Below are positions 1 to 27,937 of a stretch of 64,000 bases of DNA, piece after piece. Both the position numbers and the translations under genes were made by a program. The notes beneath the pieces were generated by a model that saw only the letters and a list, made by a program, of their open reading frames with translations, was not told the origin of the DNA and made no database searches. Within the stretch, counting starts at the first letter, position 1. The number at the start of each line of letters is the position of its first letter. Origin of the DNA: Arenibacter aquaticus (GTDB taxonomy: Bacteria > Bacteroidota > Bacteroidia > Flavobacteriales > Flavobacteriaceae); contig NZ_RQPJ01000002.1 of the NCBI RefSeq assembly GCF_003957295.1, positions 248,001 through 312,000 on the forward strand, in the 5' to 3' direction.

Positions 1-445
1 TAGTAGCTCCTCCTGGCATGACTTCCTCCCCTGGTTGAAATAGTAATTCTACCGTACCCGAGAACTCATTTTTAAGCTCATATAGTATTTTAGCGGCCAA
101 CAATAAAGAAGTCATATGTACATCATGTCCGCAGGCATGCATAACCCCATTGTTTTTGGAAATGTAATCTACCGTATTTTCCTCTTGAATAGGAAGGGCG
201 TCCATATCTGCCCTTAAAAGGATGGTTTTATCTTTTTCGGTTCCATGAATAGTAGCCAACAAACCAGTTTCTGCCACTGTTTGTATATGCTCTATGCCAA
301 TTTTCCTAAGCTGCTGCCGTATATATTTACTGGTCTGGTGTTCGTTAAAAGATAGTTCTGGATGCTGGTGTAGATGTCTTCTAACTTGAACAAAATCCGT
401 GGAAAAGGCTTTTGCCAGCTGTTTTATTTTCTCCTTGATTTCCAT
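1..445 (-). CDS. M20 family amidohydrolase (partial, N-terminal part)
   Basis: This frame starts at ATG 445 and runs off the left edge, so about 148 N-terminal residues are visible. They carry the hallmarks of M20D amidohydrolases (hippurate or IAA-amino-acid hydrolase type): a RRHLHQHPELSF segment near the N-terminus, LLRADMDALPI, and the metal-binding HACGHDVHMTS motif around residue 103, where Cys and His bind the catalytic metal pair. The last visible part, LFQPGEE, contains the expected catalytic Glu pair. No signal peptide is seen, so it is probably cytoplasmic. The exact amide substrate cannot be told from this family. Family is clear; C-terminal half not seen. Confidence 0.88.
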   Translation of the reverse strand, partial: MEIKEKIKQLAKAFSTDFVQVRRHLHQHPELSFNEHQTSKYIRQQLRKIGIEHIQTVAETGLLATIHGTEKDKTILLRADMDALPIQEENTVDYISKNNGVMHACGHDVHMTSLLLAAKILYELKNEFSGTVELLFQPGEEVMPGGAT

Positions 446-1152: not shown

Positions 1153-2157
1153 TCAATCTTCAATCACATAATTTAAAAATCCGGAACTATTCCACTGCCG
1201 GTAGCCGTCAGGAATATCCTCTACCATAAAGACCTCCAACCCATCAGCCTTACTTACCACTCTTTTTCCGTCTTCTACTCCCAAGACACTTAATGCAGAG
1301 GCATATGCATCTGCCATGGTTCCATTAGGGGCAATGGTGGTCACCTGTATATTATTGCTTAAAGCCCTGCCGTTTCGTGGGTCTATTATATGGGAGTACC
1401 TTATATTGTCTATCACAACATATTGATATAAATCCCCTGAGGTGGCCACAGCCCTATTTTTCAACTTTATTTTTTGGAAGACCTCCTTGCCATTTTCATC
1501 ATAATAACTAAATCCCAAAACCCAATAGTCCTTATCCGGTGGTGCATCGCTAACGGTAATATCACCGCCCATGTCCACCAAAGCCGCAATTACCCCATTG
1601 TTTTTTAAGATTTTAATGGCCTCATCGGCTGCAAAGCCCTTACCAATACCCCCTACATCCAATTGCATACCGTTCTTAGTTAGTTTCACCACATTTTTTG
1701 AAGGCAATTGCAGGTTTTCACTGCCAGTTTTTACCATAGCAGTGCGTATTTCATTAAGGGCAGGAAGCTCTCTGTTATCCCTTGCCGTTCGCCATAGTCC
1801 AATTAAGGGTCCCAATGTAACATCAAAGGCCCCTTTGGTCTCTTTTGAAAAGTTGGCAGACTGCTTCAATATATAAAAGAGATCATTGCTAACGGCTACA
1901 TTCGTAAACGGAGTATTACTTAAAATGTTGATTTCACTATCGGGAATATAATTACTTAGCCTGCTATTTAGCTCATCAATTCTATTGAAAACCAATTGCG
2001 CCACTGAATCTGCTTTTGCTTTATTTTCATCATAAAACACCAGACCTATTTGAGTCCCCATTTGCCGATGTGAATATTGAAACCTTTTTTGAGCCGTTAA
2101 GCACATATTAAAAGCAAAAAGAAATAAGAGAATAGGGAAAGGGCTGGTTTTGATCAT
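1153..2157 (-). CDS. apbE: FAD:protein FMN transferase (ApbE family)
   Basis: ApbE proteins move FMN from FAD to a Thr of a target flavoprotein on the outer side of the membrane, using Mg2+. The sequence shows an N-terminal signal peptide (IKTSPFPILLFLFAF), the DVGGIGKGFAAD motif, DMGGD, ATSGD, and HIIDPRNG near the C-terminus. Length is normal. I start at ATG 2157 because the signal peptide then sits at the N-terminus; a GTG at 2181 in frame is the alternative. It is the last gene of a tight minus-strand unit behind a haem-c membrane protein, a DUF1501 protein and a DUF1549/DUF1553 protein, which suggests an envelope redox role. No obvious flavinylation acceptor is seen in the neighbours. 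Confidence 0.9.
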   Translation of the reverse strand: MIKTSPFPILLFLFAFNMCLTAQKRFQYSHRQMGTQIGLVFYDENKAKADSVAQLVFNRIDELNSRLSNYIPDSEINILSNTPFTNVAVSNDLFYILKQSANFSKETKGAFDVTLGPLIGLWRTARDNRELPALNEIRTAMVKTGSENLQLPSKNVVKLTKNGMQLDVGGIGKGFAADEAIKILKNNGVIAALVDMGGDITVSDAPPDKDYWVLGFSYYDENGKEVFQKIKLKNRAVATSGDLYQYVVIDNIRYSHIIDPRNGRALSNNIQVTTIAPNGTMADAYASALSVLGVEDGKRVVSKADGLEVFMVEDIPDGYRQWNSSGFLNYVIED

Positions 2158-2185
2158 ATTGGCTCTGGTAAATCCTTTCACGAAT

Positions 2186-3622
2186 TTACTGTAAACTATC
2201 CAGACTAGTGGCCTGCTTTATAAATGCATCTTTTAGTTCCGGATCTATCCCACGTACAATATGCACATTGGGCAGTGCCTCTTTAAGCTCAGAAAGTCCG
2301 CTATCTGTAATTTGGGTTTCCCATATATACAAACTTTTTAGACTACTAAAGCCTTTTAAAACAGTTACACTTTCATCTGTAATAGCCGTTTCATAAGCCT
2401 TTATGACCCGTAATTTGGAAAGCGTCTTCAACTTATCAATTCCCAAATCCGTTATAGGGGTCCGGTCAATCTCCAACCATTCTAAATTTTGACATTGGCC
2501 CACCGCAGCCAATTCTTCTTCCCCTATTGGAATACCACTCATATCCAACTCAACAATGTTATTGGCTATCCTTTGCAATCGGGTAATATTTTTGGAACTA
2601 TAATTAGGGGGTAAAAATACGGAAACACTCAAGGCCTGGGAATTACCGCTTATTCGTCTAATGGTAACGTAATCGGAGGCCAGATTTAGCAGGGTAGTAT
2701 CAGCTACCTTGGGAAGTTTGGCCCATTTATTTTCCGCTCCTTGGTCCATCATTTTTCTTACTAGGCCCACCAATGGATCCGTATTGTCCAAATGCTCCAG
2801 TCTTAAGGTATCAGAGGCCCCCAAGGTTATCCAACGCTCCAATATCCGTATCTCATCTTGGGACAAGGGCTTCTTCCCTTCCGGGGGCATATGCTCCTCA
2901 TTCTCCATGGGCAGGTGAAGTCGCCTTATAAGTTCACTATTTTCTGGGTCCCCAACCACAATAGAGGGCCCACTTTCCCCGCCTTCTATGAGTGCCCCCA
3001 AACTGTTCATCTCCAATTCCCCTTTTTTCTTATTAGGATTGTGGCATGCAATACAATTTTTGTCCATTATCCTGTGTACAACATGCTCATATATCAAGGG
3101 ATTTTCGGGTATTTTTTCCGTTTTATTACTATTGGGCAAAGCCAAAAAATCTTCCCCATGGGTAATCATTCCCCCATAATGCCCCGTTAATCCTATTAAG
3201 ACAATAACAACCAACTGTATGCCCCTTACCAAATAAGTTTGTTGCAAATGATTGGTGCTTATCCAATACCATAATACTGCCAACAATGCAACCCCGGCCC
3301 CCATCCATTGATGCCAAAAAAGGAGATCCGCTTTAGGAGCCGATTCCGTACCCAAAAAAAACCCGGTAATAGCAGTAATCAAAGCGGACAGCGTGGCAAT
3401 GGTCAATAATAATCTGGGTACAATTTGATTCAGCAGGCCAATACCTGCTGCCATCAACAACAGTACTATAGGAAAATGTAAGACCAATGGGTGCAAGCGT
3501 CCCAACCAAGCAACCATACTAGGCAAGTCTAAAAAGGATTCGAAAACAAGACAAAAAATTAAAAATACCGTTAGGCCAAAAATAACATAATCGACCCTTG
3601 GGGAACTGTTCTTTTTAATCAT
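2186..3622 (-). CDS. DUF2231 membrane protein with haem c domain and C-terminal LRRs (set A)
   Basis: The 478-residue protein has three parts. Residues about 10-160 form four or more membrane segments of DUF2231 type, with His in HPLVLHFPI (H44, H49), H103, and TGHYGGMITHG (H148, H155). Residues about 170-270 form a planctomycete-type cytochrome c domain with CIACH at 190-194 and a later MPPEGK that can give the Met ligand. The rest contains leucine-rich repeats (LEWLEIDRTPITDLGIDKL and following). The conserved membrane His suggest b-type haem, which is inference. It is a paralogue of the gene at 7657-9051. Spacing to the upstream DUF1501 gene is 3 bp. Function is unknown; it may anchor electron flow for the cluster. 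Confidence 0.8.
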   Translation of the reverse strand: MIKKNSSPRVDYVIFGLTVFLIFCLVFESFLDLPSMVAWLGRLHPLVLHFPIVLLLMAAGIGLLNQIVPRLLLTIATLSALITAITGFFLGTESAPKADLLFWHQWMGAGVALLAVLWYWISTNHLQQTYLVRGIQLVVIVLIGLTGHYGGMITHGEDFLALPNSNKTEKIPENPLIYEHVVHRIMDKNCIACHNPNKKKGELEMNSLGALIEGGESGPSIVVGDPENSELIRRLHLPMENEEHMPPEGKKPLSQDEIRILERWITLGASDTLRLEHLDNTDPLVGLVRKMMDQGAENKWAKLPKVADTTLLNLASDYVTIRRISGNSQALSVSVFLPPNYSSKNITRLQRIANNIVELDMSGIPIGEEELAAVGQCQNLEWLEIDRTPITDLGIDKLKTLSKLRVIKAYETAITDESVTVLKGFSSLKSLYIWETQITDSGLSELKEALPNVHIVRGIDPELKDAFIKQATSLDSLQ

Positions 3623-3625
3623 ATA

Positions 3626-5086
3626 CTAGGTTATAATATCTTTTATTACATTACCGGCAACATCAGTAAGCCTAAAGCGACGTCCCTGGTATTTGTATGT
3701 TAATTGTTCATGATCAAGACCCAGATTATTCATAATGGTGGCATGAAAATCATTGATATGAACTGGATTTTTTACAATATTATAACCAAATTCATCGGTT
3801 TCCCCAAAAGTAATTCCCGGTTTTATTCCTCCACCTGCCATCCATATACTGAATGCCCTGGGATGATGGTCCCTACCATAATTTTTAGGGTCAAAATTTC
3901 CTTGACAATAGTTGGTCCTGCCAAATTCGCCGCCCCAGATTACAAGTGTATCCTCTAACATTCCCCGCTGTTTAAGATCTAGGATCAGGGCTGCCGAGGC
4001 CTGATCCACATCTTTTGCCTGGCCTGCCATCTCATTAGGTAAATTTCCGTGCTGGTCCCAACCTTGATGGTACAATTGAATAAAACGTACACCGTTTTCT
4101 GCAAGCCTACGGGCCTGTAAACAATTGGCGGCATAAGTTCCCGGGACCTGTGAGTCTTCGCCGTACAATTTTATAATGGATTCCGGTTCCTTTTTTATGT
4201 CCATTACATCCGGTACTGACATTTGCATCCTATAGGCCATCTCGTATTGTGCAATCCTGGATTCTATTTCATCATCACCTGTTTCTATATGGTGTAGTTT
4301 ATTAAGGGAAGAAACATGGTCCAACAAATGACGTTTATCGGAACGTGAAATTCCGTCAGGATCGTTTAAATATAGTACTGGGTCCTTCCCAGACCTTAAT
4401 AATACCCCTTGGTGCTTGGAGTCCAAAAATCCACTGGACCACAGTTTGGAATAAAGGCCTTGGCTATTGCCTTTTCCCCTAGAGGTAAGCACTACAAAAG
4501 AGGGTAAATTTTGATTTTCACTACCTAGTCCATAACTCATCCAAGATCCCATACTGGGCCTTCCTGATTGTTGACTACCAGTCTGAAAAAAGGTAATGGC
4601 CGGATCGTGGTTAATGGCCTCGGTATGCATACTTTTTACTATACAGATGTCGTCTGCAATTTTCGCTATATGTGGAAAAAATTCACTTACCCAGGCTCCG
4701 CTTTTTCCGTGTTGGGCAAACTTGGCTGCCGAAGGCATCAAAGGAAATTTATCCTGCCCTGCGGTCATTCCGGTAAGACGCTGGCCATTCCGGACGGAGT
4801 CTGGCAGGTCTTCTCCCATCCTTTTGGCCAAGGTTGGTTTGTAATCAAAAGATTCCAATTGTGATGGAGCCCCTGATTGAAACAAATAAATGACCCTTTT
4901 AGCCTTAGGGGCAAAATGCGGGATACCCAATGGCTGACTCGCCAAAGGTTTGGGACCGCCTTTGAAGAGGTCCGGAATCAACAATGACCCCAAAGCCAAG
5001 GAACCGATCCCAACACTAAGCTGGGAGAAGAAGTGCCTACGGTTTACTTTAAGCGGATTTTCGGATTTTGATTTGTCTTCTTCCAT
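3626..5086 (-). CDS. DUF1501 protein, Tat-exported (set A)
   Basis: The 486-residue product is a DUF1501 protein, a family in the alkaline phosphatase/sulfatase-like superfamily and abundant in Planctomycetes. An N-terminal NRRHFFSQ followed by a hydrophobic GIGSLALGSLL resembles a Tat signal. Family motifs are WDQHG (343-347), GGEFGRT (385-391), GRDHHP (404-409) and NDFHAT (445-450), whose acidic and His residues are candidate metal ligands. It follows the haem-c/DUF1549/DUF1553 gene by 5 bp, the usual partner arrangement. No enzymatic activity is established for the family that I can name. The paralogue at 10230-11741 is closely similar along its whole length. Confidence 0.88.
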   Translation of the reverse strand: MEEDKSKSENPLKVNRRHFFSQLSVGIGSLALGSLLIPDLFKGGPKPLASQPLGIPHFAPKAKRVIYLFQSGAPSQLESFDYKPTLAKRMGEDLPDSVRNGQRLTGMTAGQDKFPLMPSAAKFAQHGKSGAWVSEFFPHIAKIADDICIVKSMHTEAINHDPAITFFQTGSQQSGRPSMGSWMSYGLGSENQNLPSFVVLTSRGKGNSQGLYSKLWSSGFLDSKHQGVLLRSGKDPVLYLNDPDGISRSDKRHLLDHVSSLNKLHHIETGDDEIESRIAQYEMAYRMQMSVPDVMDIKKEPESIIKLYGEDSQVPGTYAANCLQARRLAENGVRFIQLYHQGWDQHGNLPNEMAGQAKDVDQASAALILDLKQRGMLEDTLVIWGGEFGRTNYCQGNFDPKNYGRDHHPRAFSIWMAGGGIKPGITFGETDEFGYNIVKNPVHINDFHATIMNNLGLDHEQLTYKYQGRRFRLTDVAGNVIKDIIT

Positions 5087-5091
5087 GATCG

Positions 5092-7434
5092 TTATTCTTT
5101 TGTTATTGTTTCATCAAGATTATATATCACCTGTGCCGTTAACATCAGCGCAGCTGTTTTAACCGGATCTGTTTCCATATTTTTGTATTCTCCTTGGGCT
5201 ATCAATTTTTCTGCATTACCCTCTTCCTTTAAAAACTTGTCCAAGGCATCGGAATAATAGTTCTCCAAGACCTTAAGCTCCTCATCTTTGGGGTTCCGGA
5301 TCAGTATCCTTTGAAAAACGGTGGTAACCCATTGATTGGGAGGCTGTATTTCAGCAATCACATTCTGGGCCAATACCCTGGCCGCTTCCAACATTTGAAC
5401 GTCATTTTGAAGGGCCAATGCCTGTAATGGTGTATTGGTCTTCTGTCTTCTAACCTCACAAATATCCCTATTAGGGGCATCAAAAATGGACATACTGGGC
5501 GGGGGCAATGTCCTTTTCCAAAGGGTGTACAGGGAACGCCTGTACAACTTATCGCCCTCATCGGCTACATAGGTGGTCAGCACCCCTCTATTGCCACCTG
5601 CATTGGTCTCCTCCCATAGCCCTGGAGGCTGGTAAGGTTTTACACTGGGCCCTCCTATTTCTTTGTTCAACAAACCACTGGTGGCCAAAATATAATCGCG
5701 AATAATCTCCCCACTCATTCTAAATCTAGGAGCCCTGGACAGCCATCTATTCTCGGGGTCTGCTTTTTTCACTTCTTCTGTTGCCACGGAACTTTGCTGA
5801 TAGGTTGCCGATAGCATTATTTTTTTTAATAGATATTTTATATCCCAATTATGCTCAACAAAATCCCTTGCAAGCCAGTCCAGCAATTGCGGATGGGTCG
5901 GCAAGCTTCCCTGTACCCCAAAATCCTCAGCAGTCTCTACCAGCCCTTTACCGAACAACATGCCCCAAATCCTATTTACAAAAACCCTAGAGGTAAGCGG
6001 ATTGTCCTCATCAGTCACCCATTTGGCCAATCCCAACCTATTTTTGGGCAGGTTCTCGGAAAAAGGCAGGATAATATCCGGGGTGCCGGGGGCTACTTCC
6101 TCTCCCGGGCTATCATAGGCACCACGATTAAATATATAGGTCTTTCTTGGCATAGAATCGTTCATTACCATTACCTTGACCTCCTCTCCTTCAGGCTTAT
6201 TTATAAATGACAATACCCCAGCAGTTTCCTCATCGGATATTTCAATATAGGGAGCATCCGCAAAATATTTCTGCCGCGCGGCTTGTACGGCATCCATCCG
6301 CAATCCTTTTTCATTTACATTGTTAAAAAAGGAATATATCTCAAAATAATCCCTCTGGGACAATTGATCATATTTGTGATCGTGACATTTGGCGCATTCC
6401 AATGTCAACCCTAAAATGCCTTTTCCCAAGGTGTTGGTACGGTCCGAGACGTAGTAGGAGTGGTACTCCTCCTGTATAACCCCACCTTCCTGGGTTATAG
6501 GATGGTTTCTGTTGAATCCCGTAGCCAAGATCTGCTCCATACCCGCATTGGGCATGAGATCACCTGCCAATTGCAAGGTCAAAAACTCATCATAGGGCAG
6601 ATTATTATTAAAGGCATGGATAACCCAGTCGCGCCAAGGCCACATACTTCTATAACTGTCATCCTGATACCCGTGTGAATCCGCATACCTGGCCACGTCC
6701 AACCAGACCTGTGTCATCCGTTCCCCATAGGCGGGCGAAGCCAGAAATTCATCTATCGCCTGCTCCAGGATATCCTCGGAGGAATTGGAAAGAAACAGCC
6801 TTACCTGCGCTGCATTGGGTGGTAGGCCTGTTAAATCCAAACTCATTCTTCTAATCAACGTATGGTCATCCGCCTTTGAGGAAGGAGATAGGCCATTCTC
6901 TTCCAGTTTTTCCAAAATAAAGGCATCAATTTCATTCTCCCCCCAATTGGTTGCTTCATTTTGTGGAAGATCGGCCTTTTTGGGGGGTATAAAAGCCCAG
7001 TGCTTTTCAAATTTAGCCCCTTGCTCTATCCATTTTTTAAGCAATTTTTTTTCGTATGAATTTAATTTTAGTTGTGAATCTGGAGGGGGCATAATTTGTT
7101 TGGGGTCATCAGAAACTACTTGTTGATACAACAGACTACGGTTAGGCTTTCCAGCCACGATGGCAAATTTCCCAGGGTTCTCCGGCAACTCTGAAAATGC
7201 CGCCTGCTCATCATCCAATCGCAAACCTGCCTTTCTTTTGTTGGCATCAGGTCCATGACAGGTATAGCAATTATCGGATAGTATGGGTTTTATATGAAAA
7301 TTATAATCCACAACATCCGGTAGCTTCTGGCTAACATATTCATCGTCCACTGCTTTAAAAAGTCCCGATTTAAAGGCAAACAGCAGGGCGATCAAGCCAG
7401 TCAATATTAAAAGAACTATAGCTTTTATTTTCAT
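5092..7434 (-). CDS. Haem c (PSCyt1)/DUF1549/DUF1553 protein (set A)
   Basis: The 780-residue protein starts with a hydrophobic signal or anchor (IKAIVLLILTGLIALLFAF). A planctomycete cytochrome c domain follows, with CYTCHGPD (CxxCH at 56-60) and a downstream MPPPDS Met ligand candidate. DUF1549 covers about residues 165-370 and itself contains a second CxxCH, CAKCHDHKYD (347-351). DUF1553 covers about 490-750 (NPLTSRVFVNRIW, TNTPLQALALQND). Two haems per chain are therefore possible. It is the first gene of set A; 222 bp separate it from the gene upstream, enough for its own promoter, although I find no clear TAnnTTTG box there. Its biochemical role is unknown; DUF1501 partnership is the strongest context. 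Confidence 0.87.
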   Translation of the reverse strand: MKIKAIVLLILTGLIALLFAFKSGLFKAVDDEYVSQKLPDVVDYNFHIKPILSDNCYTCHGPDANKRKAGLRLDDEQAAFSELPENPGKFAIVAGKPNRSLLYQQVVSDDPKQIMPPPDSQLKLNSYEKKLLKKWIEQGAKFEKHWAFIPPKKADLPQNEATNWGENEIDAFILEKLEENGLSPSSKADDHTLIRRMSLDLTGLPPNAAQVRLFLSNSSEDILEQAIDEFLASPAYGERMTQVWLDVARYADSHGYQDDSYRSMWPWRDWVIHAFNNNLPYDEFLTLQLAGDLMPNAGMEQILATGFNRNHPITQEGGVIQEEYHSYYVSDRTNTLGKGILGLTLECAKCHDHKYDQLSQRDYFEIYSFFNNVNEKGLRMDAVQAARQKYFADAPYIEISDEETAGVLSFINKPEGEEVKVMVMNDSMPRKTYIFNRGAYDSPGEEVAPGTPDIILPFSENLPKNRLGLAKWVTDEDNPLTSRVFVNRIWGMLFGKGLVETAEDFGVQGSLPTHPQLLDWLARDFVEHNWDIKYLLKKIMLSATYQQSSVATEEVKKADPENRWLSRAPRFRMSGEIIRDYILATSGLLNKEIGGPSVKPYQPPGLWEETNAGGNRGVLTTYVADEGDKLYRRSLYTLWKRTLPPPSMSIFDAPNRDICEVRRQKTNTPLQALALQNDVQMLEAARVLAQNVIAEIQPPNQWVTTVFQRILIRNPKDEELKVLENYYSDALDKFLKEEGNAEKLIAQGEYKNMETDPVKTAALMLTAQVIYNLDETITKE

Positions 7435-7656
7435 CAGGGAACTGTAATTATTGCGGTAAAATACAGCGTATAAGCCTTAACACAGATGACCAATATCCAA
7501 AAGGCAGCCTACATCTACTTTTACCTATATTATATTATTTTTCCTAAATTAACAACATATTTTTAAAAAACCATCTAAAATTTTCCCAATTAACCAAAGT
7601 GGACTACAATTACACAAAAACCTAAAACAAGAAGTTTATTACAGTGCCGTTGCAGC

Positions 7657-9051
7657 TTACATTCCCAATATAATGGTAGGTCCTTCTCCATAGGCCTGAA
7701 AATTTGCCACTTGATCTTCGGTGATAGTCGTCCCCCATACATAAACCCTTTCCAATGCCTTCATTTTAGCAAAAATGTCAAAACTTGAGGCCGTAATTTG
7801 TGTTTGATATAAATTGAGTCCGGTTAAACTTTCGTTTGAAGCAATATACCCCACACCTGCATCTGTAATTGGATTTTTTTCTACCTCCAATTTCTGAAGA
7901 TTCTTGAACTGGCCAATGGTTTCCATATGCCTGTCCTGAACAAAATTGTCCTTTAGGGACAGCCATAAAATATTGTTTTTTATAGGAAGTAACTTCTGCA
8001 GTTTTACATCCAGTCCATCACCCTTTTCACTACTTACGGATTTTGATGGGAGAACAATTTCATATACATTGGCACCATACACCAATTCCCTTACTTTAAA
8101 GCCAGCAGCTACAATATCTTTTAATACCTCTGTGCCAACCTCATCAACAATGGGCATGGCAATGCCACTTTTACCGGTTTTATCCTCCAGCCCCAGCATT
8201 AGGGATGCAATGCTTATAATCTCTTCCGGGGCTTCCAAATCGGCCATGGCAACCTTAAAATCGGCATTCCCCTTTTCTATCCAGAATGACAAAATGGACT
8301 TTTCTTCCTCTGTCAAGGGAGTCTTCCCTTCTGGAGGCATAAAATCATCATGGTGCGGATCTAACATAGTGCGCCGAATCAATTCCGATTTTTGTGCATT
8401 TCCAGCAATTAGGGCATCCCCATTTTTACCTCCGCGCATAATAGCAGTTGAATCCTGTAAGGACAGTCCTCCCTTTTTCTTACTGGAATTATGACATCCA
8501 ATACATTTGTCATCCAGAATTGGATTTACCAAATAGTCATATACGGTAGCTTCTCCCAAGTGTTCTATAGACGGTAATACTACCTTTTCCGTTCTTCCAA
8601 AAGGGGCATATTTCACCAAGTAATCACTACCATGGGTTAAATTGCCTCCATAGTGTCCAGTTACACTTACCAATACCACTACCAAGGTCAGTGCTGCTAT
8701 TTTAGATTTTAAAACGTTGAATTTTCCAATATCGATCTTACCCGAGCGTATGGCCCACGCAAAAAACGTCACTATTGTTGTTACTGTTCCAAACCAAAAA
8801 TGGGTATCCAAGGTACTCACGTCATAGTCTCCGCTCAAGGAAAGCATATAACCCAGAACCGATGCAACTGCGGCGCTTATGGCCCCCGCCAACAAGGCAA
8901 ATTCAATGGCCATGGAATGCGCGGAATGTTTTTTCCAATGGCTGTATAGTTCCAAAATAAAGGCAAAGAATAAAAAACCAATAGGCAAATGCACCACAAG
9001 TGGGTGAAATCTACCTATGAACAAAACAAAATCTGGCACACTACTTTCCAT
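7657..9051 (-). CDS. DUF2231 membrane protein with haem c domain and LRRs (set B)
   Basis: This 464-residue paralogue of the 2186-3622 product has the same order of parts. The membrane domain has HPLVVHLPI (H16, H21), H84 and TGHYGGNLTHG (H133, H140), all at places matching the set A His. The cytochrome c domain has CIGCH at 183-187 and MPPEGK downstream. The C-terminal region has leucine-rich repeats (LQKLEVEKNPITDAGVGYI). The conserved pattern across two diverged copies supports a role for the membrane His, perhaps haem b or quinone chemistry, which is inference. It is the last gene of set B, 38 bp behind the NHL-like gene. Confidence 0.8.
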   Translation of the reverse strand: MESSVPDFVLFIGRFHPLVVHLPIGFLFFAFILELYSHWKKHSAHSMAIEFALLAGAISAAVASVLGYMLSLSGDYDVSTLDTHFWFGTVTTIVTFFAWAIRSGKIDIGKFNVLKSKIAALTLVVVLVSVTGHYGGNLTHGSDYLVKYAPFGRTEKVVLPSIEHLGEATVYDYLVNPILDDKCIGCHNSSKKKGGLSLQDSTAIMRGGKNGDALIAGNAQKSELIRRTMLDPHHDDFMPPEGKTPLTEEEKSILSFWIEKGNADFKVAMADLEAPEEIISIASLMLGLEDKTGKSGIAMPIVDEVGTEVLKDIVAAGFKVRELVYGANVYEIVLPSKSVSSEKGDGLDVKLQKLLPIKNNILWLSLKDNFVQDRHMETIGQFKNLQKLEVEKNPITDAGVGYIASNESLTGLNLYQTQITASSFDIFAKMKALERVYVWGTTITEDQVANFQAYGEGPTIILGM

Positions 9052-9089
9052 CCTTATTTTTTAATTTCCATTAATCTTTAAATAGAACC

Positions 9090-10202
9090 CTAAACCCTTT
9101 CCAATTTTATAGGTGCCGTGTTATAAGCATTCCATTGACAGACATATAAATTCTTGTCTGGATCCACAAAAACGTCATGACCATGGTTAAAAATAGGGGT
9201 TTGGGCATTGCGCATGGTCTGAAGTTCCCCGTTGATATAATTAGGTTCCTCTCCCCCCGGATTGGAAACCACCTTATTTTTTCCATCCAAAATGGTTACA
9301 AAACCAGTATCCCGCACCCATTTTTTACCATCTCTGGTTTCCGACCAACATACTCCCGAATAAATATTATCACCATCCAAAACAGCACGACAGACAAAAG
9401 CCCCCGGCAAATTCAAGGTCTTAATATATATTCCGTCAAGAGTGAAAAATTTGAAAGCATTTTCCGTTCTAGAAGTTACGATCAATACCGGGTTTTTACT
9501 ATCTCTATAATCTACCGCCACTCCATGGGCATTCATCAAATTATAATTTTCATCGGCATTGTTTTTACCTCCCCATTTCCTAATAAATTCGCCTTTGTGG
9601 TTGAATTGAAGAATATAGTCCGAACCATAACCATCGGCCACATAGATATCCCCATTGGGCCCAACAGCAGTTTCAGTGGGCATATAAGCCTCCCCTTCCG
9701 CATATACCCCAATAGTTAATGGATGTGGCAGCGGAAAAATGAGTCGGCCGTCAATAGTTGTCTTAAAAACCTGACCAGCCTGTTTGTGGTACTTTCCCGT
9801 TTTATCTACATAATACCCACAATCTGCGATATATAGGACGTCTTCACCTCCTTCGTTATGTAAGGTTAGACCATGTCCTCCCGGATACCCAGTACCCCAA
9901 TGATCCAATAGTTTTCCAGATTTGTCGAAGACCAAAATATTATTGGCGGTATGATCACCGATCATCAATAATCTACCCTTACTGTCCATTTGCATTTCAT
10001 GACAGTTTAGAATAGGGTTATGGGCCGTGGATATTTTTGCCCAATCTCTATGTACTTTATATCTGTACTCCCCATGCCCCACAATATTTTCTTTTTGGCC
10101 TTCTTTTCCAAGAATATGGAATCCAAACGACGGGGTCGCTGCCAATGCAGACCCCACCAAAGTAGTGGTGCTTATAAATTTCCTTCTAGAATTGTTCATC
10201 AT
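9090..10202 (-). CDS. NHL/six-bladed beta-propeller-like protein, Tat-exported (set B)
   Basis: The 370-residue product has an N-terminal SRRKFISTTTLVGSALA, a good Tat signal with the twin Arg followed by F-I. The mature part has NHL-type blades: GNGDIYVAD-like stretches (PNGDIYVADGYGSDYILQF), AHGVAVDY, and HGHDVFVDPDKNLYV. Such propellers bind ligands or catalyse reactions in peptide amidation and sugar-related pathways, but no specific catalytic set is recognisable here. It has no counterpart in set A, so it is specific to the set B unit. It sits between the DUF1501 and DUF2231/haem c genes with short gaps (27 and 38 bp). Confidence 0.78.
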   Translation of the reverse strand: MMNNSRRKFISTTTLVGSALAATPSFGFHILGKEGQKENIVGHGEYRYKVHRDWAKISTAHNPILNCHEMQMDSKGRLLMIGDHTANNILVFDKSGKLLDHWGTGYPGGHGLTLHNEGGEDVLYIADCGYYVDKTGKYHKQAGQVFKTTIDGRLIFPLPHPLTIGVYAEGEAYMPTETAVGPNGDIYVADGYGSDYILQFNHKGEFIRKWGGKNNADENYNLMNAHGVAVDYRDSKNPVLIVTSRTENAFKFFTLDGIYIKTLNLPGAFVCRAVLDGDNIYSGVCWSETRDGKKWVRDTGFVTILDGKNKVVSNPGGEEPNYINGELQTMRNAQTPIFNHGHDVFVDPDKNLYVCQWNAYNTAPIKLERV

Positions 10203-10229
10203 GTTGGTTTAATACTATAATAATATTTT

Positions 10230-11741
10230 TTAGGTCAGTATATCCTTAACCACATCGCCATGCACATCTGTAAGCCTAAAGCGCCGCCCTTGATGTTTAT
10301 AGGTTAACCGCTCATGATCTATACCAAAAAGATGAAGCAAGGTAGCTTGAAAATCATGTGTGTGCACGGGATCTTTTACAATATTATAACTAAAGTCATC
10401 GGTCTCGCCGTAGGTAAATCCAGGTTTGACCCCGGCTCCTGCCATAAACATGGTAAAAGCTTTGGGGTGATGGTCCCGACCATAATTGGTATCCGTAAGC
10501 TGTCCTTGGGAGTAAACGGTACGACCAAATTCACCTCCCCACACAACTAGCGTATCCTCTAGCATGCCCCGTTGTTTTAAATCTTTGATCAGGGCAGCCG
10601 TTCCCTGGTCCGTATTCTTGCTCTGATGCCTTACCCCTCCTGGGCAATTGCCATGCTGATCCCACCCTTGGTGATATAGCTGAACAAATTTCACATCTTT
10701 CTCCAGTAACTTTCTTGCCATTAGGCAGTTGGCCGCATACGTTCCGGGGTTCCTACTGTCTGGACCGTACATATCAAATATATAATCCGGTTCATCTGAT
10801 ATATCTGTAACTTCCGGTACCGAAGTTTGCATTCTATAGGCCATTTCATATTGTGATATCCTGGCATTGATCTCGGGATCACCATACGCATCATGGGCAA
10901 TTCCGTTCAGTTTGTTCAGATAATCCAACATTTTTCTTCTATCATGGCCGTCATAGTTCTCCGGGTCGCTTAGATATAATACCGGATCTTTCCCTGAGCG
11001 AAATTGCACCCCTTGGTGTTCGGTTGGCAGAAACCCATTGCCCCATAACCTGGAATACAATGGCTGCCCTGATCCATTCTTGGACACTAGGGCTATAAAG
11101 GTGGGCAAATTATCATTGTCCGACCCCAGACCGTAACTAAGCCATGACCCTATTGATGGCCTCCCTGGCTGTTGACTCCCCGTCTGAAAAAAGGTTATTG
11201 CCGGATCATGGTTAATAGCATCGGTGTGCATGCTTTTTATAAAACACAGGTCATCTACCACCTCTGACAAATAGGGCATGGCATCACTCACCCAGGCTCT
11301 GGATTCGCCATATTGTTTAAAGTTTAAAATGGATGCCGCAATAGGGAAGGCCGTTTGATCGGCACTCATCCCGGTTAACCGTTGTCCTGCCCTAACCGAA
11401 TCGGGCAAGTCTTGGCCATACATATCGGTTAGTTTGGGTTTGTAATCAAAGAGATCTATTTGGGAGGGGCCTCCGCTCTGAAAAAGATATACGATGCGTT
11501 TGGCCTTAGGTAAATGATGGGGCAGTCCCAATTTGTTTTTGGTGAAGGCCGTGATGGCTTGTTCTGGGTGCGACAGAGGGTTTACGGCACTCCATAACTT
11601 TTCTGTATTCAACAAAGAACCCAAGGCAAGGGCTCCGATTCCCATTGTTGTTTTTTTAAAGAATTCTCGCCTATCCAGTTGCTTTTCAACAGCTTGTAGG
11701 TCCTTGTTATTAGACCTTAACTTATCATGATGATCACACAT
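10230..11741 (-). CDS. DUF1501 protein, Tat-exported (set B)
   Basis: This is the set B copy of the DUF1501 protein. The frame can be extended to a TTG at 11747, but ATG 11741 is the natural start. The N-terminus has DRREFFKKT followed by GIGALALGSLL, a stronger Tat motif than in set A. The motifs WDQHG, GGEFGRT, GRDHHP and HDFQAT are present; the last has Gln where set A has His. It follows the LamG-containing DUF1549/DUF1553 gene by 37 bp. Family membership is clear, activity unknown. The superfamily relation to phosphatases and sulfatases is established; hydrolase activity here is inference. Confidence 0.88.
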   Translation of the reverse strand: MCDHHDKLRSNNKDLQAVEKQLDRREFFKKTTMGIGALALGSLLNTEKLWSAVNPLSHPEQAITAFTKNKLGLPHHLPKAKRIVYLFQSGGPSQIDLFDYKPKLTDMYGQDLPDSVRAGQRLTGMSADQTAFPIAASILNFKQYGESRAWVSDAMPYLSEVVDDLCFIKSMHTDAINHDPAITFFQTGSQQPGRPSIGSWLSYGLGSDNDNLPTFIALVSKNGSGQPLYSRLWGNGFLPTEHQGVQFRSGKDPVLYLSDPENYDGHDRRKMLDYLNKLNGIAHDAYGDPEINARISQYEMAYRMQTSVPEVTDISDEPDYIFDMYGPDSRNPGTYAANCLMARKLLEKDVKFVQLYHQGWDQHGNCPGGVRHQSKNTDQGTAALIKDLKQRGMLEDTLVVWGGEFGRTVYSQGQLTDTNYGRDHHPKAFTMFMAGAGVKPGFTYGETDDFSYNIVKDPVHTHDFQATLLHLFGIDHERLTYKHQGRRFRLTDVHGDVVKDILT

Positions 11742-11778
11742 AACCAACTAATTGTTTTAACTATCCTTTATTTGTATA

Positions 11779-14700
11779 CTACCTTTTTGTTATAAAAAAA
11801 TCAGAATTCATGATAGTATTCGCCACTACTGCATTGGCTGCCACCAAAGCCTTATCATCGTTTCTATCCAATTTAAACTCTCCGGTATTTAACCAACCTT
11901 GTGCTTTACTTAGGTTGGCAGAGAATTTTTTATATTCTTCATCCCTAAGATCTACCAACAATTGCAGCTCCTTCTCTTGAATTTTCCTTCCCGTAAGTTG
12001 CCTAAAGACCTGGGAAACAGCAATTCTTGAATTTTTCTCCCTGCTCATTCTCTTGCCCAGAACCCTGGAAGCCTCAATATAGGTAGGGTCATTTAGCAGC
12101 ACCAAGGCCTGGAGCGGGGTATTTGTTTCCTGTCTTTGGATGGTACATACGTCACGTGCAGGGGCATCAAACGTGGCCAAGGTAGGGTGTGGTACGGAGC
12201 GTTTCCAAATAGTGTACATACTTCGGCGATACAGCTTGTCCCCTGAATCTTCCCGGTAGGTCGCATTATTTACCCTCCATAGTCCCTCTGGCTGATATGG
12301 GCTTACACTTTCCCCTCCAATAGTCTTATTTAGCAAACCGGAAGCGGCCAAGGCATTATCCCGTAACATTTCTCCTGTTAACCTTTTTGCCGGACCTCTT
12401 GCCAGTAATCTATTGGCTATATCACGCTCCATGAGTTCCTCACTTGCAGCCGACGATTGTTGATAGGTATGGGACATTACAATCATTTTCTGTAATGCTT
12501 TAATATCCCATCCAGATTCCCTAAATTTTATGGATAGCCAATCCAGCAGTTTTGGATGACTGGGCATTTCGCCTTGATTCCCAAAATCTTCCGAGGTCTT
12601 TACCAGGCCGTATCCAAAATAATGCTGCCAAAATCGGTTTACCGCCACTCTAGCGGTTAAGGGATGGTCTTCATGAAACAACCACTTGGCAAACCCCAAA
12701 CGGTTTTTAGGATAGTCACCGGGCATTGGCAAAATGGCTTCCGGGGTATTGGGAAACACCTCCTCTGTTCTGGCGTTGTACACCCCACGATCCAAAATAT
12801 AGGCCTGTACCGATTGGGCCGTCTCCTCCATAACCATCACTTCCTTTACTTTTTCAATGCTGTCTACATAACTCTTGCGCAATTCTGCCAATTGGCGGCG
12901 ATCTGCCTTGGCCTTTTTGGACACGGCCTTCGTATAATACTCTTTCAACACTTTCCTATCAGCAGGCGAAAGTTCTGTGACTAACTTATTCGTTAACCGT
13001 ACAGCATCCTCATGCCCGGCAAGCTGCATAATCTCCAATGAAGACAAATCCCTTTCATAAACCCTGATCTCGTCTATTACGGCCCCCTTAATTCCCTTGC
13101 CACGCAATCTGGCCCCCAATTGTAATCCGGGTTCATTGTTGTTCCTAAACAGAATATCTTTATAAAGGTTGTCTGTTTGCACCAGGGTCTCCATCTCCTT
13201 ACCATTTACAAACAGCTTATAACCTTCCGCGGTACTGGAACCATCATAGGTAATGGTCAAGTGTACCCATTGGTCACGAGGAAATTCGGTTTTTGAAACC
13301 TCCACAATAGCATTATTGGGGGCCGTATGCGCCATCATGAGTTCCAATTTGTTGTCTACAATCTTTAAATGATATCCCCGCCAATTATAGAGAATGGCCC
13401 CGTCACCCTTGTGAAAAATATTACCCTGGGAAATATCGGCAGGAATATTGGCCCAAAGGCTTACACTAAAAGCATCACTTCTCCCAAATACTCCTGTTTT
13501 CCTCAGGTCTAACCAAGTATCCCCATCTAGCAAAACCCCTTTTCCCTGCTTCCCTACGGAAAGGCTTATTTTCTGACCTTCGGTCCCCTCCCGCTTCATG
13601 GTGCCATTATTACGGGCGTCTACCAAATTCCTTAGACTTGTGTCGTTTAAGTTGTAATAGGCAGTTAACCCATCAACAGGACTATTCTTTGGTATGGATT
13701 GGTAGGCCTTTTTCGAAATCCATTGATCAAAATTTGCAGCCACTTCATTGTGCTCCAAAGCTTTGATTTCCGCTTCCTTCCCTTTAATCAATTCCTCCAT
13801 ATAAGCTAGAACCTGATCTTCCTCTTCAGTGGTCAACATCAAGGTAGGTACGGGCGTGGCATCGTTCCAGGAAATCTGTCCGGACTCGTTTACATTGTTG
13901 AAAAAACTGGTCAATTCGTAGAAATTCTTATGCGAAATGGGGTCATATTTATGATCGTGACATCTGGCACATGCCACCGTAAGCCCCATAAAGGCCTGCC
14001 CAACTGTACTAGCGCGGTCCACAGCGTATTCTACCAAAAACTCTTCGTTCACAATACCTCCTTCCATATTTTGTGGATGGATCCGATTAAAGGCCGTGGC
14101 CAAAATCATTTCCCTGGAAGGATTATCCATAAGGTCTCCTGCCAATTGCCAGCTAACAAATTGCTCATAGGACATATTATTGTTAAACGCCTCAATCACC
14201 CAATCTCTCCAGGGCGACATGTCACGATACCGGTCTACACTATATCCGTGTGTATCGGCGAAGCGAGAAAGGTCCATCCAATCCAAAGCCATTTGTTCCC
14301 CATAGTGGGGAGAAGCCAACAATTTATCAACTTGCTTTTCATAAGCATTGGGGGAGCTATCCTGCAAAAAGGCATCCATTTCTTCCAAGGAAGGTGGCAA
14401 TCCAGTTAAATCCAAGTACAGTCGCCTCAACAACAATTCCTTGTTCGCCCTGGGTGAAAACTGCAAACTATCCTGCTCTAAACGGGAGAGGACAAAATTA
14501 TCTATTGGATTAATCAGCATGCTATCATCCTTCACCTTAGGCACCTCATAGGCCATTGGTTTAATAAAAGCCCAATGGTCTTTGTATTCCGCGCCATCTT
14601 CTATCCATTTTATCAAAACCGCCTTTTCATAATCGGATAGGGACAGATGGGAGTCCGGTTCCGGCATAATGTATTTTGGATCTTCGGTAATAATTCTGTG

Positions 14701-15000
14701 AAATACCTCGCTTTTATTAAGGTTGCCCGGTACAATAGCAAAGGTTCCTGGTGATTCCGTAGACTCCTTAAAGGCCAACCCAGGACTGTGTAATTGCAAG
14801 CCGCCCTTTATCTTTGCATTGTCCGGCCCATGACAAATAAAACATTTATCGGACAAAATAGGTTTTACGTGCAGGTTAAAATCTATTTCCTTAGGCAATT
14901 TTTCATATTCTAGGGTTACCAGCTCAGGGAGCTCTGGCCCACCACAGGAAATAATGGATAAAAAACCAATACAAAGCAACAAATTCTTAAAAATTGTCAT
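11779..15000 (-). CDS. Haem c (PSCyt1)/DUF1549/LamG/DUF1553 lipoprotein (set B)
   Basis: From ATG 15000 the product has 1073 residues; a TTG at 15021 is the longest frame start but lies at the expected transcript start. The N-terminus is a lipoprotein signal with lipobox LSIISC (Cys 19). A cytochrome c domain carries CFICHGPD (CxxCH at 53-57) and MPEPDS. DUF1549 includes a second CxxCH (CARCHDHKYD). A LamG/concanavalin-like domain of roughly 200 residues is inserted next (AFSVSLWANI, WVHLTITYDG, GAVIDEIRVYERDL), then DUF1553. The set A homologue lacks this insert. LamG folds often bind glycans, suggesting a carbohydrate-facing role, by inference only. It leads the set B unit and is divergent from the AraC gene. 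Confidence 0.87.
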   Translation of the reverse strand: MTIFKNLLLCIGFLSIISCGGPELPELVTLEYEKLPKEIDFNLHVKPILSDKCFICHGPDNAKIKGGLQLHSPGLAFKESTESPGTFAIVPGNLNKSEVFHRIITEDPKYIMPEPDSHLSLSDYEKAVLIKWIEDGAEYKDHWAFIKPMAYEVPKVKDDSMLINPIDNFVLSRLEQDSLQFSPRANKELLLRRLYLDLTGLPPSLEEMDAFLQDSSPNAYEKQVDKLLASPHYGEQMALDWMDLSRFADTHGYSVDRYRDMSPWRDWVIEAFNNNMSYEQFVSWQLAGDLMDNPSREMILATAFNRIHPQNMEGGIVNEEFLVEYAVDRASTVGQAFMGLTVACARCHDHKYDPISHKNFYELTSFFNNVNESGQISWNDATPVPTLMLTTEEEDQVLAYMEELIKGKEAEIKALEHNEVAANFDQWISKKAYQSIPKNSPVDGLTAYYNLNDTSLRNLVDARNNGTMKREGTEGQKISLSVGKQGKGVLLDGDTWLDLRKTGVFGRSDAFSVSLWANIPADISQGNIFHKGDGAILYNWRGYHLKIVDNKLELMMAHTAPNNAIVEVSKTEFPRDQWVHLTITYDGSSTAEGYKLFVNGKEMETLVQTDNLYKDILFRNNNEPGLQLGARLRGKGIKGAVIDEIRVYERDLSSLEIMQLAGHEDAVRLTNKLVTELSPADRKVLKEYYTKAVSKKAKADRRQLAELRKSYVDSIEKVKEVMVMEETAQSVQAYILDRGVYNARTEEVFPNTPEAILPMPGDYPKNRLGFAKWLFHEDHPLTARVAVNRFWQHYFGYGLVKTSEDFGNQGEMPSHPKLLDWLSIKFRESGWDIKALQKMIVMSHTYQQSSAASEELMERDIANRLLARGPAKRLTGEMLRDNALAASGLLNKTIGGESVSPYQPEGLWRVNNATYREDSGDKLYRRSMYTIWKRSVPHPTLATFDAPARDVCTIQRQETNTPLQALVLLNDPTYIEASRVLGKRMSREKNSRIAVSQVFRQLTGRKIQEKELQLLVDLRDEEYKKFSANLSKAQGWLNTGEFKLDRNDDKALVAANAVVANTIMNSDFFITKR

Positions 15001-15026
15001 AGCAAAACAATCATTTAGCAAATTAT

Positions 15027-15034
15027 CAAAGTTA
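15027..15034 (-). promoter_or_regulatory. Candidate -7 box of set B
   Basis: On the minus strand TAACTTTG fits the Bacteroidota -7 consensus TAnnTTTG. It lies 26 bp before ATG 15000, giving a short leader. No well-spaced -33 TTG is seen, so an activator, possibly the divergent AraC protein, may be needed. Confidence 0.4.
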
Positions 15035-15216
15035 AAATTTAAGTATCCATAAAAGTATATCCAAATCAGCTTAAGTATAACACATTTCCGACATTTTTAA
15101 TTGACCAATAAAAATTATTCCTTTACACCTTAAAAATACAGTCATTTTATCCCTATATTAGGCAAGATGGCCTTAAATACACACTCTGTTCTAAATCCGA
15201 CAAATATCTTAAGACC

Positions 15217-16092
15217 ATGTCTAAAACACTGCAATCCTTAAAATTGGCCCTTCTAAATGTTGGGTACGCCAAATTAGGCCCTTTATGGGACTATGATGAT
15301 GTAATCAGTCCGTTCTTCCGAATGTACTATATAACTGCTGGAAAGGCCATGATATACCACAGCAATGAAACCATTAAACTAAAACCCGGCCACATATACC
15401 TTATCCCCAGCTATACTTTTGGCAGATACAAATGTGATGACTACCATGAACAGTACTACATAAGTTGTTTGGAAGAATTAAAAAATGGTTACTCCATTTT
15501 TAATTACGGCAGCTTTAGCTATGAGGCAAAAGCGAACTCCATGGACCTTTATTACTTTAAACGCCTATTGGAATTAAACCCCAATAGGCAGTTGGAGAAC
15601 GACAACCCCAAAGTTTATGACAATAGGCCATCCATAATGGATTTTGAAAAGAGAAATGAAGATTTAAGCCTTTCTGAATATTTGGAAACCCATGCGATAT
15701 TAAGAATATTACTCTCTAGGTTCGTAGCAGGTACCAATGCACAAAGAGGCAAGAGCAATATAAAAAAAGAATTTGGGATGGTTCTTAATTATATCCACTC
15801 TAACCTACACAAACATTTAACGGTAAAGCAATTGGCCGCCTTTTGTCATTTAAATACCGACCACTTCTCTAGGGTATTCAATGAAAATTTTGGGATGCGC
15901 CCCAATAAATACATACAATCCAAACGTATTGAAAGAGCACAATTACTATTGCTTTCCACAAACAATTCCCTAAAGCAAATTGCCGAAAAGGTAGGACTGG
16001 AGAACCTTTCCTACTTTACAAGAACATTTAAGAATCATACGGGCAAGACACCCGGAAAATTTAGGGAGGAACAACTTAAAGGAAATAGCTGA
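15217..16092 (+). CDS. AraC family transcriptional regulator
   Basis: The 291-residue protein has an N-terminal cupin-like sensor region (about 1-170, with LKPGHIYLIPSY) and a C-terminal pair of helix-turn-helix motifs of the AraC/XylS type (HLTVKQLAAFCHLNTDHFSRVF and SLKQIAEKVGLENLSYFTRTFK, ending KTPGKFRE). Such regulators usually bind a small ligand, often a sugar, and activate nearby genes. It is transcribed divergently from set B with a 216-bp shared upstream region. Control of the DUF1501/haem c cluster is therefore likely by context. The ligand is unknown. Confidence 0.88.
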   Translation: MSKTLQSLKLALLNVGYAKLGPLWDYDDVISPFFRMYYITAGKAMIYHSNETIKLKPGHIYLIPSYTFGRYKCDDYHEQYYISCLEELKNGYSIFNYGSFSYEAKANSMDLYYFKRLLELNPNRQLENDNPKVYDNRPSIMDFEKRNEDLSLSEYLETHAILRILLSRFVAGTNAQRGKSNIKKEFGMVLNYIHSNLHKHLTVKQLAAFCHLNTDHFSRVFNENFGMRPNKYIQSKRIERAQLLLLSTNNSLKQIAEKVGLENLSYFTRTFKNHTGKTPGKFREEQLKGNS

Positions 16093-16211: not shown

Positions 16212-16763
16212 CTATTTCTTGGCAAAAACCAAATCAAAGTTTACCGTAACATCATCACCAACAATAATTTGGCCAAACATGGCCGTTGGTGGCACCATAT
16301 TAAAATCCTGTAATACAATTCCCTTAGTACCTTTAAATGAGTAACTACCTTCTTCTTTTTGCAATTGGGATGTTATCTCAACCACCTTGCCCACACCGGC
16401 TATGGTAAGCAGTCCTTTAAGATTAAGGGTGTTAACCGCTTCTGGAACTTCCTTTACCTCCTGTAGCTTAAAAGATACCTCCGGATGCTCTTCCTTCTTT
16501 AAGGCTGCGTGCATTTTTTTATCCATGGCCGCACCGCGTTCACTATTAATATTTGCCACATCAACCTGAAACAATAGTTCTTTAATTACTTCTCCTGTAA
16601 CTTCCATACTTCCCTTTATGGAATTGGCCTCTACCGTCCAATCATGGATAGTTGAGCTGCCATTTATCTTAAGGGTGCTTTCACTGGTCAAGGAAAAAGA
16701 TTCTTGCGCATGACCCACAAAAACCATAAATAACACTACTAATATAAAAAGTCTATTTTGCAT
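16212..16763 (-). CDS. YceI family periplasmic protein
   Basis: The 183-residue product begins with a signal peptide (LFILVVLFMVFVGHA). The mature part is a YceI-type lipocalin-like barrel, with STIHDWTVEANSIKG near the start, then the VDVANINSERGAAMDKKMH block and EHPEVSFKL, all typical. Members bind isoprenoid or lipid molecules in the periplasm; here the ligand is unknown. It lies 40 bp downstream of the formylglycine-enzyme-fold lipoprotein on the same strand and may be cotranscribed with it. Confidence 0.9.
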   Translation of the reverse strand: MQNRLFILVVLFMVFVGHAQESFSLTSESTLKINGSSTIHDWTVEANSIKGSMEVTGEVIKELLFQVDVANINSERGAAMDKKMHAALKKEEHPEVSFKLQEVKEVPEAVNTLNLKGLLTIAGVGKVVEITSQLQKEEGSYSFKGTKGIVLQDFNMVPPTAMFGQIIVGDDVTVNFDLVFAKK

Positions 16764-27924: not shown

Positions 27925-27937
27925 GCTTCTATCTTTA

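Follow-up and report, generated by a model that had tools for sequence, protein, structure and literature searches.

Two sets of genes for related haem c and DUF1501 proteins stand side by side in the genome of Arenibacter aquaticus (Flavobacteriaceae), and the locus raises two questions: how the sets came to lie together, and on what they act. It is part of a stretch of 64,000 nucleotides (assembly GCF_003957295.1, contig NZ_RQPJ01000002.1, positions 248,001 to 312,000), hereafter the window, whose own numbering is used throughout. A first-pass annotation of positions 1153..16092 had read the locus as a tandem duplication under one inducible AraC regulator, and had named no substrate. Our genome comparisons suggest another history, in which a ready-made cassette (set B) was most likely lodged inside an older operon (set A) rather than arising by duplication, and they point to L-fucose as the substrate. 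We tentatively put at about 0.4 the probability that the composite locus encodes an envelope haem-c oxidation module working with the breakdown of L-fucose or fucose glycans.

Both sets lie on the minus strand. Set A comprises a PSCyt1-PSCyt2-PSD1 protein with two CXXCH motifs (5092..7434; hereafter the PSD1 protein), a DUF1501 protein with an RRxF (twin-arginine-type) signal and a sulfatase-like C-terminal half (3626..5086; E 1.9e-160), and a membrane cytochrome made of a DUF2231-like helix bundle, PSCyt1 and a weakly matching leucine-rich repeat (LRR) region (2186..3622). In set B, the PSD1 protein (11779..15021) carries a LamG insert and, by eye, a lipobox-like N-terminus; an NHL-like beta-propeller gene (9090..10202), whose product has a twin-arginine-like N-terminus, again by eye, lies between the genes for DUF1501 (10230..11747; E 1.5e-157) and the DUF2231-PSCyt1-LRR membrane cytochrome (7657..9051). 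A gap of 222 nt (7435..7656) separates the B membrane gene from the A PSD1 gene. PSCyt1, PSCyt2 and PSD1 exceed their Pfam cut-offs in that order in both sets, and the two full-length DUF1501 proteins score 534.8 and 525.2 bits against PF07394 (cut-off 27). The A membrane protein receives no Pfam DUF2231 call; it aligns with that of B and shares its invariant histidines. LRR matches in both membrane proteins fall below the Pfam cut-off, and a predicted model of the A protein matches LRR structures. Divergent from the B PSD1 gene, on the plus strand, lies the gene for the AraC-family regulator of the B cassette (15217..16092), which belongs to the AraC/XylS family (HTH_18, 78.0 bits; cut-off 33.6). 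Every domain named by the first-pass annotation was found in place, both in the two same-strand sets (haem c/DUF1549/DUF1553, DUF1501, DUF2231/haem c/LRR) and in the extras, namely NHL and LamG in B, ApbE beside A and the AraC gene. The match of these domains to their positions is confirmed and lies far beyond chance. The view of A and B as two related redox systems also stands, both sets having envelope signals and different partners.

The flanks of the two sets are unequal. The gene for an ApbE-family FMN transferase (1153..2181, minus strand; Pfam ApbE E 7.7e-69) adjoins set A only and not set B. On the other side, outside the range annotated earlier, lie minus-strand genes for a YceI-domain protein (16212..16763) and a protein with the fold of formylglycine-generating enzyme (FGE), here called SUMF and lipobox-like by eye (16804..17853); in most relatives both are A-operon genes upstream of A. 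The order in the window is SUMF-YceI, then AraC with B, then A with ApbE. The start of an M20-family amidohydrolase gene, a common A neighbour in relatives, is cut by the window edge (2..445, minus strand; Pfam Peptidase_M20; full length 394 aa in locus L031).

The A and B proteins are not each other's nearest relatives. The genome (5.23 Mb; nearest named relative in our scan Arenibacter troitsensis, with 97% DUF1501 identity) holds five full modules of this kind: besides A and B there are C and D, elsewhere on the contig of the window, and E on a different contig. Within this genome, the A DUF1501 protein shares 67% identity with that of E and 65% with that of D, against 61% with B, and the A PSD1 protein shares 52% and 52% with those of D and E, against 48% with B. 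Quick trees place the A and B DUF1501 proteins in separate old clades, each joined by other genera, and forcing them into one clade lowers the log-likelihood by 108.8 (approximately unbiased test, p 2.9e-73; 49 rows, quick tree). The proposed tandem duplication does not survive these results; the DUF1501 trees largely depict unrelated acquisitions, the outcome that the annotation itself had named as refuting its reading.

Gene neighborhoods separate the two sets as well. Among 397 genomes of the family, orthologs of the A DUF1501 protein (84-97% identity, the set being cut at the gap between 84% and 69%, with at most four candidates scored per genome) occur in 35, including the window's own; Zobellia, Maribacter and Arenibacter are among the genera with named A-type loci. 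Neighborhoods were compared for 33 of the other 34, one genome (G225) being left out because the contig starts only 1.4 kb away from the gene; the window and A. troitsensis, in both of which B precedes A, stand outside these 33 A loci. For B, 20 loci were taken from the 21 best NHL matches besides the window's (G326, near a contig end, was left out, and many weaker matches exist), and the control consists of 20 stretches from 18 genomes, all of them B-holding. Reference proteins and part of the profiles were built from A and B loci, so that their counts include their source loci. The A loci hold SUMF in 23 cases, YceI in 23, M20 in 14, a short-chain dehydrogenase (SDR) in 13, ApbE in 6 and an FAH-family hydrolase in 6; with 6 of 33, ApbE is an occasional partner. 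At the cut-off used, AraC is found at 18 of the 20 B loci and at none of the A loci, apart from a remnant in one (G212), a distribution at odds with the single regulator once proposed for both sets. All 20 B loci hold NHL, which was the query, and none holds SUMF or YceI; SUMF, YceI, AraC, NHL and M20 are each absent from all 20 control stretches. Judged by these neighborhoods, the comparison shows set A as part of an old operon, in relatives mostly arranged as SUMF-YceI-(ApbE or M20)-PSD1-DUF1501-membrane cytochrome and often followed by the SDR gene, and it shows set B elsewhere as a stand-alone cassette of AraC and PSD1(LamG)-DUF1501-NHL-membrane cytochrome.

Closely related genomes retain traces of how the two may have met. 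The site between YceI and A was compared in four Arenibacter genomes, a set that does not include A. algicola (L079). In A. troitsensis, YceI, AraC, B without NHL, A and ApbE follow in the same order as in the window. In G373, a DUF1501 fragment (76 aa, 49%) is all that the 799 nt from YceI to A contain; it scores 65 bits to B and 58 to A and is thus likely, with some uncertainty, to be of B type. The corresponding gap of G212 holds the AraC remnant (46 aa, 78%) together with the end of a B-type membrane gene (147 aa, 56%) and, by eye, an insertion-sequence-like open frame. All four genomes therefore carry B or B-like traces; in two of them the genes of the cassette are open, and in the other two it has decayed. 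A is kept in all four, so that in the simplest history B entered the A operon once, early on, and losses followed; another order of rearrangements could also have produced the arrangement. A recent tandem duplication under one AraC regulator would account for adjacent homologous genes in the same order and orientation, yet we consider it very improbable, as it is rejected for DUF1501 by the topology test and opposed by the different usual neighbors, the decayed remnants in relatives and an operator motif that stands before B only. At L113:4692-6760, in a genome of the same genus, a B cassette is decayed and accompanied by an insertion-sequence-like open frame (by eye).

That motif is a candidate AraC operator. 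The intergenic region between AraC and the B PSD1 gene could be delimited in 17 cases, namely the window, 15 of the 20 B loci (three of genus g2 and two of genus g217 among these loci) and locus L105. A count of 8-mers found AAATCCGA in 12 of the 17 regions, the best 8-mer in 100 shuffles reaching 9 (mean 5.5). The degenerate form WWWTCCGA occurs in 16 of the 17, in a single orientation and with 26 copies, against a mean of 0.8 and a maximum of 4 regions after shuffling; as it was picked after the 8-mer count, the 16 of 17 is not a blind test. The window has two copies on the plus strand (15084..15091 and 15193..15200), and the 222 nt before A hold none. The shared inducible regulator of the annotation is not supported, and a shared AraC operon was rejected, the candidate operator preceding B alone; read-through transcription from B into A is possible. 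The Bacteroidetes promoter consensus has two matches in the window (5.3 expected), neither at the A or B operons, and none in 30 upstream regions of A.

The indication of a substrate comes from co-occurrence. At a cut-off of E 1e-40, an L-fuconolactonase homologue is present in all 35 A-bearing genomes and in 92 of the 362 without A (p 1.3e-19); among the 397 sampled genomes, A occurs only where this homologue is present. By genus, which is the only way in which phylogeny was handled, the homologue is present in all 24 A-bearing genera and in 84 of the 237 genera overall (p 1.3e-12); with the six genomes whose gene order prompted the test removed, the genome figure is 29 of 29 (p 1.3e-16). Alginate lyase, the lifestyle control, is found in 13 of 35 A-bearing genomes and 89 of 362 others (p 0.11). 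Restriction to the 102 DUF1501-bearing genomes leaves the lactonase at 35 of 35 with A and 42 of 67 without (p 4.9e-6), the alginate lyase at 13 of 35 and 24 of 67 (p 1.0); among DUF1501-bearing genomes of at least 3.5 Mb, the lactonase stands at 35 of 35 against 28 of 38 (p 0.001). Co-occurrence beyond the lifestyle control was found for set A with this one pathway gene, and for set B the tie is one of linkage, in 6 of 20 loci. There, in genera g2, g19 and g217, at least three L-fucose genes adjoin B (0 of 20 control stretches; 0 of 33 A loci), drawn from FucP, L-fucose dehydrogenase, lactonase, tagaturonate-reductase-like, altronate-dehydratase-like and rhaM genes; two of these score above their curated cut-offs, FucP with 516.6 bits (cut-off 280.4) and L-fucose dehydrogenase with 357.9 (cut-off 300). 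The SDR gene at A comes from several genera (control 1 of 20), and the best curated model for the FAH protein (control 0 of 20) is 2,4-didehydro-3-deoxy-L-rhamnonate hydrolase. The GH95 genes beside module D were also counted in favor of fucose. Gfo/Idh/MocA oxidoreductases, sought with a profile made from B loci, occur at 10 of 20 B loci, 7 of 33 A loci and 0 of 20 control stretches; they score 155.9 bits against a glycoside 3-dehydrogenase model (cut-off 750), a possible link to 3-keto sugars.

Several observations weigh against a fucose-linked module. Neither the FAH protein (339.4 bits; cut-off 500) nor the lactonase (238.9; cut-off 400) reaches its curated score. For the SDR after A, a broad 'glucose 1-dehydrogenase' subfamily is the sole model passed, and no model for fucose is. 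It was their presence in the loci that led to the choice of the SDR, FAH and fucose families, so that the locus counts are not blind; the linkage at B comes from three genera only; and in the window genome the lactonase gene and two close FucP homologues lie away from this contig. NHL is missing from B of A. troitsensis. Sulfatases, which sulfated fucans would lead one to expect, show no enrichment at B (7 of 20 loci against 5 of 20 in the control), and enrichment was dropped as an argument. Co-occurrence may also stem from lifestyle or common descent, for which alginate lyase, genome size and genus collapse are partial controls. Since other modules lie near GH2, GH130 and GH20 genes, one sugar probably cannot serve all of them, and the electron direction and the reaction are inferred rather than observed.

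The haem proteins of the module share invariant motifs and residues. Each PSD1 protein has two CXXCH motifs (47 of 47), including the haem c motif in PSCyt1, and the second, CxxCHxHxYD, is invariant over the 47 rows. The predicted PSD1 model (predicted local distance difference test, pLDDT, 84.9; predicted template modelling score, pTM, 0.86) has a FoxE-like first haem domain. A Foldseek search of PDB with this model gave no match at E<=0.001, a missing match being no proof of a new fold; in a second structural look only the PSCyt1 part stood out, with two cytochrome matches. Membrane proteins have one CXXCH each (46 of 46), and H44, H49, H104, H148, H155, C190, C193, H194 and M245 are invariant in their alignment (46 rows). 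In the model of the A protein (mean pLDDT 87.0, pTM 0.51) the bundle helices span residues 49-63, 70-92, 99-123 and 129-154, and the five invariant bundle histidines all sit, by eye, where helices end, on the same side, adjoining the haem-c domain and near one predicted membrane face. The fold search with this model returned LRR matches throughout, which swamped the helix bundle. Elsewhere in the window, two LRR-rich open reading frames of 323 and 296 aa overlap by about 50 bases (27019-28828).

DUF1501 proteins carry the RRxF signal in 115 of 115 rows, so that they are probably exported folded with metals bound, and H160, D344, H346, E387, D406, H407 and H408 are invariant in 114 of 114. The B protein scores 19.5 bits against Pfam Sulfatase (cut-off 25); the C-terminal half aligns with sulfatases weakly (hhalign probability 21%), the N-terminal half unreliably, and sulfatase matches in PDB reach E 0.28 or worse. 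Formylglycine sulfatases have a conserved C/S-x-P-x-R nucleophile motif. No cysteine column is fully conserved over the 114 DUF1501 rows (the best reach 98 and 94), and the best-conserved cysteines of A are C148 (CIVKS) and C322 (CLQAR, which is without the proline). Formylglycine-generating enzymes have C-terminal catalytic cysteines; none of 24 SUMF proteins has a cysteine in its last 120 aa, and by this criterion the upstream FGE-fold protein is probably not such an enzyme. FGE-type maturation of DUF1501 was rejected on the two counts of no fully conserved DUF1501 cysteine and no C-terminal SUMF cysteine. A flavinylating role for ApbE was likewise rejected, the scanned module proteins holding no D..[ST][GA]A[ST] motif. 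A second FGE-fold protein, encoded at 35974-37332 near the gliding-motility gene GldM (33607-35175), we take to be GldK from its position.

In the mechanism that we favor, DUF1501 and the di-haem PSD1 protein, with or without the LamG insert, would act on a sugar in the envelope. Electrons would pass to the single haem c of the membrane cytochrome, on to the His-rich helix bundle and into the quinone pool, and the oxidised product would enter the cytosolic non-phosphorylating L-fucose route of lactonase, dehydratase, SDR and diketo-acid hydrolase. AraC would switch set B through the TCCGA sites, and set A may have its own control or be reached by read-through only. We infer the location of the module and a haem b or quinone site in it; YceI proteins bind isoprenoid lipids, which would fit a quinone link. 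A stronger version, in which PSCyt2-PSD1 is a new di-haem catalytic fold oxidising L-fucose or fucosides in the envelope, DUF2231 a new quinone-reducing membrane unit and each module a substrate-specific sugar dehydrogenase feeding the electron transport chain, so that the whole forms a hitherto unrecognised respiratory sugar route, is unlikely in our estimate.

Other readings take the same facts differently, and their odds overlap since they are not all mutually exclusive. A and B might act on other algal polysaccharides eaten by the same bacteria, the fucose link being a mere correlate. Modules C, E and F near GH2, GH130 and GH20, a lactonase and FucP unlinked to A or B in the window genome, the lack of three or more B-type fucose genes at any A locus and the lactonase in many DUF1501-bearing genomes without A all suit this view, which we hold to be a real if doubtful prospect; it is opposed by the lactonase in every A-bearing genome while alginate lyase shows no significant link, also within DUF1501-bearing and larger genomes, and by the SDR, sometimes with FAH, after A in several genera.

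The electron flow might also be the reverse, with quinol electrons moving out by way of the membrane cytochrome and reaching the PSCyt2 haem, which would activate O2 or peroxide for oxidative attack on glycans in the manner of a haem peroxidase or oxygenase. The invariant CxxCHxHxYD motif, with the sixth haem ligand unassigned, is compatible with this, as is the PSD1 model without a PDB match, although weak or missing fold matches prove nothing; a study of lake genomes also reports a higher PSCyt gene density at the surface (PMC5615132). With no peroxidase or oxygenase family among the Pfam matches, we regard this reversal as improbable. About equally improbable is that DUF1501 is a sulfatase- or phosphatase-like enzyme without formylglycine, the cytochromes serving its metal centre or a redox sensor: the C-terminal alignment with sulfatases, the seven invariant residues and the export signal speak for it, but the sulfatase match is weak, no sulfatase enrichment lies nearby and the invariant haem motifs imply redox work. 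An envelope module tied to L-fucose remains our preferred account.

Modules of this kind are widespread in Bacteroidota and regularly organized. Among 80 named loci, the best 80 of 589 found through DUF1501, the PSD1 gene lies immediately 5' of DUF1501 in 79, most commonly with gaps of 1-5 nt. Of 78 of these loci, 63 have a membrane gene at most three genes downstream of DUF1501 and 25 an NHL propeller gene immediately 3' of it; NHL homologues occur in 93 of the 397 family genomes, 89 of which also have DUF1501. By gene order and domain content, the predicted membrane helix bundle with PSCyt1 and LRR is a regular third component of the module in Bacteroidota. In the window genome, a sixth module, F, has a 947-aa fusion protein (L030:10384-13227) that joins the membrane bundle to PSCyt1, PSCyt2 and PSD1; its His motifs match the five invariant bundle histidines, and its gene adjoins a diverged DUF1501, which hints at joint action of the parts. 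The neighbors of F are GH20, KduI, SDR and sugar transporter genes; those of C are GH2 and xylose-isomerase-like genes, those of D sulfatase, hybrid two-component regulator and GH95 genes, and those of E GH130 and symporter genes. Loci L104, L099 and L110 in other Bacteroidota hold two or three modules in tandem, in L110 a C-type followed by a B-type, so that modules of different types side by side are recurrent.

The fucose association offers a first handle on protein families without assigned function. The link of set A to one pathway gene is strong enough to guide the choice of substrate, laboratory genus and deletion target, and by means of AraC and its candidate operator inducers of set B could be screened for. 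If the proposed module is real, many marine bacteria that feed on brown algae would couple envelope sugar oxidation directly to respiration; if the stronger respiratory-route version held, it would give a first function to families present in dozens of copies in Rhodopirellula baltica.

Compared with known systems, the locus shares parts with several. The non-phosphorylating L-fucose pathway comprises FucP, L-fucose dehydrogenase, lactonase, dehydratase, SDR and FAH hydrolase, all known steps being cytosolic and NAD(P)-linked or hydrolytic, and to our knowledge a haem-c complex is no part of it; its genes neighbor B in three genera, and some of the A loci have SDR or FAH genes after them. Only the first haem domain of the PSD1 protein has a counterpart in FoxE and in the cytochrome part of hydrazine synthase alpha. 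S1 sulfatases and the alkaline phosphatase superfamily are weakly like the C-terminal half of DUF1501, which differs in having no fully conserved cysteine and another invariant Asp/His/Glu set. Closest are the PSCyt1-PSCyt2-PSD1 genes of Rhodopirellula and Verrucomicrobia, which have the same Pfam domains and an optional LamG insert (PMC5615132, PMC2754498). There, a 2017 study of Verrucomicrobia describes PSCyt domains and their pairing with unknown gene families, PSCyt2 genes usually adjoining one such family, and suggests a role with carbohydrates (PMC5615132); a 2009 expression study places a PSD1 gene, by proposal, under an extracytoplasmic function (ECF) factor (PMC2754498). A literature search covering few subscription journals found no tie of DUF1501 or PSCyt to fucose catabolism, PMC5615132, seen in part, holding both words, and it met neither the nested-cassette history nor the regular membrane component in Bacteroidota. 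Relative to the Rhodopirellula and Verrucomicrobia genes, the Bacteroidota modules described here add a regular third gene (membrane bundle-PSCyt1-LRR), an AraC-flanked cassette form and a statistical link to an L-fucose gene.

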